40,289 nt of DNA, from assembly GCA_020427345.1 (NCBI GenBank), contig JAGQOO010000004.1, positions 1 through 40,289 of the forward strand. Direction: 5' to 3'. Made by a program: the position numbers and the translations under genes. The notes under the pieces are model-generated. The model searched no databases, was not told the DNA's origin, and worked only from the letters and a program-made list of their open reading frames with translations. Positions 24,684 through 28,822 of this stretch are shown here, in pieces; position 1 is the first letter of the stretch; every line of letters begins with the position of its first letter. This stretch comes from Phycisphaerales bacterium (GTDB lineage: Bacteria > Planctomycetota > Phycisphaerae > UBA1845 > Fen-1342).

Positions 24684-25409
24684 ATGCGACTGGACTTTAA
24701 GATTCTGCCGCAACCCGACAACACGACCTGCGGGCCGACTTGCCTGCAAGCCGTGTATCAGCACTTCGGCGACGTGATGCCGCTTCAGCAAGTGATTCGC
24801 GAAGCGTTCGCATTTGAGGGCGGCGGCACGCTTGCGGTGTTCCTCGGCGTCCACGCGCTGAAGCGCGGGTATTCCGCAACAATCCACACCTACAACCTCG
24901 TGCTGTTCGATCCATCGTGGTTCGCGGCGCCGGGCGTCAATCTCGCGGAGAAACTCCGGGCGCAGGCCGCGGTCAAGTCCGACCCGCGGCTTCGCCACGC
25001 GACGGAGGGATACCTCGAATTCCTCTCGCTCGGCGGTCGGATCGAGTTCCAGGACCTGACAACAACCTTGGTCCGTCGCCACTTGAAGAAAAACGTCCCG
25101 ATTCTGACGGGCCTTAGCGCCACATATCTGTATGACTGCCGCCGTGAGCGTGACGCGGACATGGAGTACGACGACATTGTCGGCGTTCCGCAAGGCCACT
25201 TTGTAGTGCTGTGCGGCTACGATGCGGAGAGGCGCGAAGTGATTGTCGCGGACCCGCAACATCCGAACCCGCGCACTTCGTCGCCCCTTTATTCGCTGCC
25301 TATCCAGCGCGTCATACACTCGATCCTGCTGGGCGTGCTGACCTATGACGCCAACCTGTTGACGTTGAATCCGCCTGTAACCCCCAAGGAGCATGCGCCT
25401 CGTGCGTAA
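24684..25409 (+). CDS. C39-like cysteine peptidase of the ATP-grasp operon
   Basis: The 241-residue protein has the papain-like C39 core: LPQPDNTTCGPTCLQAVY with nucleophile C16, GHFVVLCGYD with H172 and IVADP with D190. The full Cys-His-Asp triad is in order. It has no transporter domains and no signal peptide, unlike bacteriocin-exporting C39 proteins, so it is probably a free cytosolic peptidase or amidase. An insert of about 90 residues lies between the Cys and His parts. ATG 24684 is chosen because GAGGAG lies four bases upstream; ATG 24669 is in frame but lacks a site. Its end overlaps the ATP-grasp gene, so translation is probably coupled. It may cleave the product of the ligases encoded next, or activate a precursor. 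Confidence 0.82.
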   Translation: MRLDFKILPQPDNTTCGPTCLQAVYQHFGDVMPLQQVIREAFAFEGGGTLAVFLGVHALKRGYSATIHTYNLVLFDPSWFAAPGVNLAEKLRAQAAVKSDPRLRHATEGYLEFLSLGGRIEFQDLTTTLVRRHLKKNVPILTGLSATYLYDCRRERDADMEYDDIVGVPQGHFVVLCGYDAERREVIVADPQHPNPRTSSPLYSLPIQRVIHSILLGVLTYDANLLTLNPPVTPKEHAPRA

Positions 25410-26871
25410 TCTCGTCATTGCCGAGAACCCCAAGAACTGGTCGCTCGAACTGCGCGACGCGACCATGATCTCTGCCCGGCAGTATCTAACCGATCCGGCG
25501 TACTTCGACGCGCGCGGCTTGCGCATATTCAACCTGTGCCGGTCATACCGCTATCAATCCGTCGGCTACTACGTCTCGCTGCTCGCGATGGCACGCGGCC
25601 ACCGGGCGCTGCCGAGTATCGAGACCATACAGGACTTGAAATCGCCGACGCTGACGCGCGTTGTCGCCGGCGACCTCGATGAGCTGATGCAGAAGAGCCT
25701 GCGCCACGTTGAAGGCGATCATTTCACGTTGAGCGTCTACTTCGGACGGAACGTCGCCAAGCGATACGACGAACTCAGTAGCCGTCTATTCCGCCTGTTT
25801 CAGGCGCCGATGCTGCGGGCCGAGTTCATCCGGGCCGACGGCGAATGGACGCTGCGCACGATCGGGCCGATCGATCGAAAAGACATCAGCGAGTCGCATA
25901 AGGCGTTTCTGAGCGACGCCGCCAGCCGGTATTTTGCCGAAACGCCGCGCGCGCCGCGCACGCGGCGCGGCGCGCAATACGAACTCGCAGTATTGCACCG
26001 CCCCGACGAGGAAAACTCACCCTCCAACGCCGGCGCGCTCAAGCGCTTCGCCAAGGTCGCCCGCGAACTGTCGATGAACCCGCAGTTGATCGAAGCGGAG
26101 GATTTCTCGCGCCTGGCGGAGTTTGACGCGCTGTTGATTCGCGCGACCACCGCCGTCAACCACTATACGTATCGCTTCGCCCGCCGCGCCGCGGCCGAGG
26201 GGCTGGCCGTCATCGATGACCCCGCTTCCATCGTCCGCTGCACGAACAAGGTCTACATGGCCGAGCTGTTGGATCGCCACGAAGTGCCGACGCCGAAGAC
26301 CCTCATCGTGCACCGCGACAATCGCGACGATGTCGAGTCCGCGATCGGCCTGCCGTGCATCCTCAAAACGCCCGACGGCTCGTTTTCATCCGGCGTCAAG
26401 AAAGCCGAGACGATCGATGAACTCAAAACACTGCTGGACGACATGTTCGAAAAGTCGGATCTGCTGATCGCCCAGGAGTTCACGCCGACCGAATTCGACT
26501 GGCGCGTCGGCGTGCTCGAAGGGCGACCGCTGTTTGTGTGCAAGTACTACATGGCCAAACAACACTGGCAGATTACGAAAGTGCAGGGCAAGAGCGTCGA
26601 TTATGGCAAAGTCGAGTCCGTCATCGTCGACTCCGCGCCCAAGAACATCGTGCGCACCGCGGTGAAGGCGGCCCGCCTCATCGGCGACGGACTGTATGGC
26701 GTCGACCTGAAGGAAGTGCATGGCCAGCCAAAAGTGATTGAAGTCAACGACAATCCGAACATCGACAAGGGTTTTGAGGATTCGATTCTCGGTGACGTGC
26801 TCTATGAGCGGATCCTGCGGTGGCTGATGGAACGTGTCGATCGCCGACGCCAGGGTGGGGGCCGCATTTGA
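25402..26871 (+). CDS. RimK-type ATP-grasp ligase with N-terminal RLAN-like domain
   Basis: The protein has about 489 residues. The N-terminal ~150 residues (NLVIAENPKNWSLEL, ISARQYLTDPAYF, NLCRSYRYQSVGYYVSLLA) match the RLAN domain found ahead of some RimK-like ATP-grasp enzymes. The ATP-grasp part runs from about 200 to 480: CILKTPDGSFSSGVKKAE with K322 near the ATP loop, LIAQEFTPTEFDWRVGVLEG, and the metal-binding VIEVNDNPNID with E447 and N449. Such enzymes form amide bonds from a carboxylate, ATP and an amine via an acyl phosphate. GTG 25402 has AAGGAG ten bases upstream and gives the family-like opening; ATG 25393 would add three residues but stands only one base from that site. It overlaps both neighbours, so the four genes are probably one translationally coupled operon. 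The substrate is unknown. Confidence 0.88.
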   Translation: MRNLVIAENPKNWSLELRDATMISARQYLTDPAYFDARGLRIFNLCRSYRYQSVGYYVSLLAMARGHRALPSIETIQDLKSPTLTRVVAGDLDELMQKSLRHVEGDHFTLSVYFGRNVAKRYDELSSRLFRLFQAPMLRAEFIRADGEWTLRTIGPIDRKDISESHKAFLSDAASRYFAETPRAPRTRRGAQYELAVLHRPDEENSPSNAGALKRFAKVARELSMNPQLIEAEDFSRLAEFDALLIRATTAVNHYTYRFARRAAAEGLAVIDDPASIVRCTNKVYMAELLDRHEVPTPKTLIVHRDNRDDVESAIGLPCILKTPDGSFSSGVKKAETIDELKTLLDDMFEKSDLLIAQEFTPTEFDWRVGVLEGRPLFVCKYYMAKQHWQITKVQGKSVDYGKVESVIVDSAPKNIVRTAVKAARLIGDGLYGVDLKEVHGQPKVIEVNDNPNIDKGFEDSILGDVLYERILRWLMERVDRRRQGGGRI

Positions 26872-28100: not shown

Positions 28101-28108
28101 GCGGCCAC

Positions 28109-28822
28109 ATGGCCTCGGCACGCCCATTTGTCCTGCTGACATGCGAGCATGGTGGGAATGATGTGCCCGCCCGCTATCGGGCGCTGTTCACCGGACACCA
28201 AGACTTGCTGCAATCGCATCGTGGCTGGGATCCCGGGGCGCTGGATTGGGCCCGCTTGGCAGCCAAATCACTCAAAGCGCCACTGATCGAGCACAAAATC
28301 ACGCGGCTGTTGGTTGAACTGAATCGATCACGCCGCCATCCGGCGCTGTTTTCCGGTATCTCGCGCGTGCTACCGCCCGCGGAGCGCGAGCGCCTGATCA
28401 GCGACACATACACCCCTTGGCGCGACGCCGTGGAAGCCCAGCTGCGCAAGGCAACTCGGAGAGGCCGCGTGTTTCACATCTCCGCGCATTCGTTCACGCC
28501 GTCACTGAACGGCGAGACACGCAACGCCGACATCGGCCTGCTGTACGACCCGCGAAGAAAATCCGAAAGCGACTTTTGCCGCGCGTGGCAGAACGAGATC
28601 ACGGCCATCCGCCCCGACTTGCGGATTCGCCGCAACTATCCGTATCGCGGCGCGGCCGATGGCTTCACGACATATCTACGAAAAGCGGTCGGCCCACGAT
28701 ATTCCGGAATCGAATTGGAAATCAACCAGCGCTTTCCGCTCGGCCCGAGCGGCGATTGGAAGAAACTGAAATGCGACACAATCGCCGCGCTCCAGGCAAC
28801 ACTAACCGCCTTTGGCGTCTAA
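28109..28822 (+). CDS. N-formylglutamate amidohydrolase-like protein
   Basis: The 237-residue protein carries the family's opening CEHGGNDVPARY with E13/H14, RGWDPGALDWAR, VELNRS, and FHISAHSFTP with H127. E13/H14 and H127 are the expected zinc ligands. It ends with GIELEINQRFPL, where the acidic residue of the active site lies. In histidine breakdown this family (HutG type) releases formate and glutamate from N-formylglutamate. No other hut gene is nearby, so here it more likely hydrolyses an acyl or glutamyl amide made by the upstream ligases. The ATG at 28109 follows the GCS2 stop by eight bases; the open frame before it overlaps GCS2 and is spurious. It is the last gene of the operon and overlaps the convergent kinase gene by four bases. 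Confidence 0.87.
   Translation: MASARPFVLLTCEHGGNDVPARYRALFTGHQDLLQSHRGWDPGALDWARLAAKSLKAPLIEHKITRLLVELNRSRRHPALFSGISRVLPPAERERLISDTYTPWRDAVEAQLRKATRRGRVFHISAHSFTPSLNGETRNADIGLLYDPRRKSESDFCRAWQNEITAIRPDLRIRRNYPYRGAADGFTTYLRKAVGPRYSGIELEINQRFPLGPSGDWKKLKCDTIAALQATLTAFGV

Follow-up and report, generated by a model that had tools for sequence, protein, structure and literature searches.

What joins two amide ligases, a papain-like peptidase and a hydrolase in one compact gene cluster, and what might they make together? The window analysed here, a stretch of 40,289 nucleotides, comes from a planctomycete MAG of 3.5 Mb (455 contigs, 84% complete), and the four-gene set is complete within about 4 kb of it. 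The phylum and, with some probability, the class (Phycisphaerae) of the MAG are deduced from the ligase tree, where genomes of the same phylum and class fall with Blastopirellula and Phycisphaerales. The set and its flanking genes are laid out as follows:

23815-24567, minus strand: gene for a VTT-domain protein, on the 5' flank of the four-gene unit
24684..25409, plus strand: C39-like papain-fold cysteine peptidase, 241 aa, start ATG 24684
25393..26871, plus strand: RLAN + RimK-like ATP-grasp amide ligase (RLAN-ATPgrasp), 492 aa
25474-25917, plus strand: RLAN domain, within the RLAN-ATPgrasp gene
about 26242-26769, plus strand: ATP-grasp domain, within the RLAN-ATPgrasp gene
26868..28100, plus strand: GCS2-family carboxylate-amine ligase (GCS2), 410 aa, TTG start
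28109..28822, plus strand: FGase-family (N-formylglutamate amidohydrolase-like) hydrolase (FGase), 237 aa, ATG start
28819-30498, minus strand: FHA-GAF-histidine kinase gene on the 3' flank, its stop overlapping the FGase stop tail to tail

The C39-like and RLAN-ATPgrasp genes overlap by 17 nt, the RLAN-ATPgrasp stop and the GCS2 TTG start overlap by 4 nt, and 8 nt separate GCS2 from FGase; the coordinates agree with a preliminary description of this DNA, which had reported four forward genes with an overlap, a 4-base overlap and an 8-base gap. This spacing suggests one transcript with translational coupling, and since the genes on both flanks lie on the minus strand, the four-gene unit is bounded. 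GAGGAG stands 4 nt 5' of ATG 24684 of the C39-like gene, for which an in-frame alternative ATG is present at 24669. A scan for sigma-70-type promoters gave no match better than shuffles, and an Rfam scan of the whole window and of 19 upstream regions of loci found tRNA only and no riboswitch. The sole Rfam match in the window is a tRNA gene at 15316-15387 on the minus strand.

The four window genes served to build profiles, with which 60 planctomycete loci and 80 named loci were searched. The named loci are the best 80 of at least 583 matches in a scan of 85,000 species, in which the phylum counts are skewed towards the GCS2 type; two phylum samples, of 294 planctomycete and 299 Pseudomonadota genomes, form the less biased sets. 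RLAN occurs in 75 of the 294 genomes sampled from Planctomycetota and in 56 of the 299 from Pseudomonadota; 14 well-known genomes taken as controls have none. Where flanks were adequate, C39-like, RLAN-ATPgrasp and GCS2 genes follow one another on one strand at 37 of 53 planctomycete RLAN loci and, among those named loci drawn from the best 80 of at least 583 matches, at 50 of 61. FGase comes next downstream in 24 of the 37 ordered planctomycete loci and in 35 of the 50 ordered named loci (again from the best 80 of at least 583). Across the relatives, the genes are about 50% identical to their counterparts in the window, and conservation of the order in dozens of unrelated genomes at this identity far exceeds chance. 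The genome comparison bears out the view of the preliminary description that the four genes form a real operon: the order is kept across many genomes, and adjacency is the rule, not a rarity. Among the matches listed, the hosts span more than a dozen phyla: they belong to Planctomycetota, Pseudomonadota, Bacteroidota, Nitrospirota, Spirochaetota, Verrucomicrobiota and Acidobacteriota, and further to Thermodesulfobacteriota, Myxococcota, Omnitrophota, Ignavibacteriota, Balneolota and Fibrobacterota. FGase is common yet optional, being present in about two thirds of loci. Genome-wide, it was found in 43 of 56 GCS2-type genomes versus 49 of 238 others, an enrichment that stems largely from the operon copies, and it is absent altogether from 13 of the 56; in the source genome, the operon copy is the sole PF05013 gene found.

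The catalytic residues are intact, in agreement with the preliminary description. The C39-like protein matches Pfam Peptidase_C39_2 (6e-10), and its invariant Q10, C16, H172 and D190 complete the papain-like Cys/His/Asp and oxyanion Gln set. It is probably cytosolic, judging its N-terminus by eye. Its AF2 model (pLDDT 91) has a papain-like fold, and the nearest folds are tied: C39 transporter peptidases (Z 15.9), the PeiR endoisopeptidase (15.4) and the Nostoc phytochelatin synthase-glutathione acyl-enzyme (15.4). The model shares its papain-like fold with the phytochelatin synthase-like NsPCS (Alr0975; Z 15.4, 160 residues, 2.5 A), but at 12% identity, and the predicted likeness does not establish a shared function, as C39 transporter peptidases and PeiR score equally well.

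The second protein has the domains of an RLAN-type ligase (Pfam RLAN PF14401, 1.2e-48; RimK PF08443, 1e-9, 38.6 bits), and Pfam finds no Rimk_N domain in it. In the list of fold matches to its AF2 model (pLDDT 89), which is taken up by the ATP-grasp part so that the Z values describe that part, LysX, ArgX and RimK are nearest (Z 27-29 over about 265 residues), followed by Ddl and glutathione synthetase (Z 22; 1gsa Z 22.2). LysX, ArgX and RimK join Glu-like amino acids to carboxylates. GCS2 certainly belongs to its superfamily (Pfam PF04107, 2.7e-26, 93 bits against a cut-off of 21), with E13, E15, N53, E54, H102, N145, R255, E259 and R261 invariant in alignments. However, it reaches none of the curated NCBIfam models of the YbdK and GshA types (best 54 bits against cut-offs of 176-427) and is distant from all solved or named GCS2 proteins (YbdK 1r8g, E 0.009 to 1.6e-5); glutamate as its substrate is therefore an assumption. 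FGase belongs to its Pfam family (PF05013, 1.3e-23, 84.7 bits against a cut-off of 28.9) and has no NCBIfam match; its nearest solved relative, Atu2144 (2odf, E 1e-38), is itself uncharacterised. Its alignment shows an invariant NR pair along with conserved His and Glu positions, features compatible with a zinc hydrolase of the kind represented by carboxypeptidase and aspartoacylase.

Each domain of the operon already has a profile and a name. Iyer et al. are said to have grouped RLAN/RimK-like ATP-grasp, GCS2 and papain-like peptidase genes into amidoligase neighbourhoods in 2009 and to have predicted peptide synthesis pathways from them. The operon, in which two distinct amide ligases stand beside a peptidase, agrees with the definition attributed to that work, and this type of neighbourhood was very probably noted there. 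Our literature search found no experimental paper on the operon and no established identity of its product.

That the two ligases work together, as the preliminary description supposed, is supported by their constant order and by four planctomycete genomes (L085, L086, L088, L092) in which RLAN-ATPgrasp and GCS2 form one chain of about 1000 residues; L088 retains the C39-like gene upstream and FGase downstream of the fusion. Elsewhere, RLAN and ATP-grasp are split into separate genes (L089, L091 and L093, comprising family f16 genomes and relatives), with a GNAT gene near L091 and L093. Glutathione synthesis offers a parallel to the fused ligases: a glutamate-cysteine-ligase-family enzyme acts with an ATP-grasp ligase (GshA/GshB), and the bifunctional glutathione synthetase GshF carries both ligases in one chain. 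The operon could on these grounds be an alternative route to gamma-glutamylcysteine or glutathione, since GCS2 belongs to the gamma-glutamylcysteine ligase superfamily and the ATP-grasp part has the glutathione synthetase fold. We nevertheless regard such a route as decidedly improbable. By fold, the ATP-grasp part resembles LysX/ArgX/RimK (Z 28) more than glutathione synthetase (Z 22) and carries an added RLAN, the fusion order is the reverse of that in GshF, and the operon has an extra peptidase and hydrolase. Moreover, the operon-bearing Thiobacillus thioparus, Nitrosomonas communis and Aromatoleum also have canonical glutathione synthetase genes (E<1e-69), and the presence of canonical GshB in several hosts argues against plain glutathione as the product.

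An indication of the chemistry comes from the partners of RLAN-ATPgrasp in other lineages. At the 48 Pseudomonadota RLAN loci with flanks, GCS2 and FGase were not found nearby at any, whereas GNAT was found at 47, in most cases fused to a DUF3335 papain-like domain. FGase, seen beside GCS2 loci, occurs within 4 kb of none of these 48 loci. Taking all 162 loci together, which include the named loci from the best 80 of at least 583 matches, 98 have GCS2 only, 58 GNAT only, two both and four neither; at the two loci with both, GNAT is at least 2 kb away. GNAT-type loci also occur in some planctomycetes (L034, L042, L084), and in the planctomycete loci L080 and L082 GNAT is fused directly to RLAN-ATPgrasp. 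On the ligase tree, the partner states need just two changes and therefore mark two deep RLAN-ATPgrasp subfamilies; as the partner follows the ligase tree, the exclusivity represents about two evolutionary events and not 156 independent ones, and the Fisher p-value computed for it over the loci should not be taken to rest on independent observations. RLAN-ATPgrasp thus comprises two deep subfamilies with mutually exclusive partners, either a C39-like protein and GCS2, often with FGase, or GNAT, often fused to DUF3335.

The operon C39-like protein and DUF3335 are homologous (hhalign 97%, E 3.6e-11, with C, H and D aligned), so the constant core is RLAN-ATPgrasp plus a papain-like protein, and the amine-acylating enzyme is the variable part. 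As GCS2 and GNAT both N-acylate amines and act as alternative partners, the chemistry shared by the two systems is probably that of an amine-capped peptide, and the exchange suggests that the role of GCS2 is to N-cap an amine. By analogy, the cap would probably be gamma-glutamyl, as in glutathione, in the GCS2 type and acetyl in the GNAT sister system. Fusions of DUF3335 to GNAT appear in a review of papain-like enzymes from 2023 (PMC10318531), which cites Iyer et al. 2009 for them; a GCS2/GNAT exchange across two RLAN subfamilies was not seen stated in the literature searched.

A ligase needs an acceptor, and the preliminary description had proposed a carrier or a metabolite, noting that the operon encodes neither precursor nor transporter. 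Across loci, indeed, none belongs to it. A survey for a conserved small ORF or a common fifth gene, the check it had proposed, revealed neither: within 8.5 kb of the loci there is no universal fifth gene and no recurrent transporter or osmotic regulator, and near more than 100 loci there is no conserved small ORF, the matches being antisense shadows of C39 and lineage-specific ORFs. Nor did the neighbourhoods of GCS2-type loci contain a LysW-like ORF (small, acidic, with CxxC pairs and a C-terminal Glu), which disfavours a LysW carrier pathway and, with the missing small ORF, leaves a carrier as acceptor unsupported. The sole recurrent extra neighbour is a GNAT + carbon-nitrogen hydrolase gene near about five loci. 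This fusion of GNAT to a carbon-nitrogen hydrolase of the nitrilase family (L042 4931-6529, L043 10735-12321) adjoins some RLAN loci of both types.

These searches also bear on maturation of a graspetide-like RiPP, in which the ATP-grasp enzyme would modify a ribosomal precursor and the C39-like peptidase cut its leader. Both are known RiPP parts (PMC8939145), and in sequence the C39-like protein is closest to the leader peptidases that belong to ABC transporters. Yet this protein differs from bacteriocin-type C39 peptidases in standing alone, at 241 aa, with neither fusion to an ABC transporter nor a linked GG-leader precursor, and a conserved small ORF and a transporter are both missing; as the scheme also leaves GCS2 and FGase unexplained, we judge it highly improbable. 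Anti-phage defence is disfavoured as well, as no PADLOC defence model was matched by any of the four proteins.

Protein tagging deserves more weight, although we consider it unlikely. The two ligases would extend a cellular protein by a tail, made of amino acids or a short peptide, as RimK does with S6, and the C39-like peptidase would remove it. The closest folds to the ATP-grasp part are those of RimK and LysX/ArgX, enzymes whose substrates are protein carboxylates, and a papain-like peptidase stands at most loci of both subfamilies, as expected of a deconjugase. However, the locus ligase has RLAN in place of Rimk_N, with no S6 or LysW-type partner linked, and the source genome encodes a separate canonical RimK with Rimk_N, for which reasons we rejected a canonical RimK identity for the locus ligase. 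There is also no linked conserved target gene or tag ORF, and the GNAT/GCS2 exchange is more easily explained with a small amine. The capping of an amine by GCS2 or GNAT would predict a small peptide as product and not a tagged protein, in line with the lack of a carrier, precursor or transporter at the loci.

Our best explanation, to which we give a little less than an even chance, is that the four genes form a metabolic module, complete in itself, for the synthesis and breakdown of a small amine-capped peptide, with a logic like that of the glutathione cycle. Building on the observed gene order, ligase fusion, intact catalytic residues, predicted folds and partner swap, we propose the following hypothetical reactions, with their order and substrates, in which (i) GCS2 would activate a glutamate-like carboxylate with ATP and couple it to an amino group, supplied by an amino acid or another amine, giving a gamma-glutamyl-type cap; (ii) RLAN-ATPgrasp would activate a free carboxylate of the GCS2 product as an acyl phosphate and add a further amino acid, although these two steps may run in reverse order; (iii) the C39-like cysteine peptidase would cut the amide made by the ATP-grasp enzyme or transfer the acyl group, comparable to phytochelatin-synthase-like enzymes acting on glutathione; and (iv) FGase would release either the cap, whether acyl or glutamyl, or a terminal acid residue, allowing the parts to be recycled. 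Somewhat more tentatively, we extend this scheme to a peptide-metabolite cycle spread over at least a dozen bacterial phyla, where the same RLAN ligase and papain-like peptidase would work with either a GCS2 gamma-glutamyl-type cap, recycled by FGase, or a GNAT acetyl cap, so that two peptide families would exist side by side.

A variant of this explanation assigns the peptide another physiological role, that of a compatible solute or osmolyte comparable to N-acetylglutaminylglutamine amide, in place of a role in redox chemistry or detoxification. The NAGGN osmolyte pathway consists of GNAT/ATP-grasp, AsnO and an M42 peptidase. It shares the logic of amine cap, ATP-grasp and peptidase with the operon, and the sister system of GNAT, ATP-grasp and peptidase reproduces its parts list; the operon, however, is without an amidotransferase and has GCS2 in place of GNAT. 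As neither an osmotic regulator nor a transporter is a recurrent neighbour of the operon, and as its hosts, which according to record titles include groundwater, soil and lake MAGs, are not confined to saline habitats, an osmolyte role appears quite unlikely, more so than protein tagging.

If the amine-capped peptide cycle operates as proposed and a glutathione-like peptide is made, common bacteria would contain a small-molecule peptide of a new class. The exchange of GCS2 for GNAT provides a concrete prediction of the chemistry, by which a prediction open since 2009 could be addressed with a simple assay, and the operon is present in culturable strains, namely Blastopirellula marina, Thiobacillus thioparus, Nitrosomonas communis and Pontibacter.

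Several further genes were observed around these families. A small SET-domain gene follows the GNAT-RLAN-ATPgrasp fusion in both planctomycetes that have it (L080 9416-10060, L082 6041-6673). In the source genome, the canonical RimK, which has Rimk_N and a C-terminal TrkA_C, is overlapped by a gene for a hydrolase of the succinylglutamate desuccinylase/aspartoacylase type (L260, G000:C11:1-4500, at 1568-2818 and 516-1571, respectively, minus strand), forming another pair of ligase and zinc hydrolase. The same genome encodes a GCS2-like protein of 652 aa fused to two CBS domains (L259, G000:C405:8000-12000, at 355-2313, minus strand), whose gene adjoins one resembling shikimate dehydrogenase.
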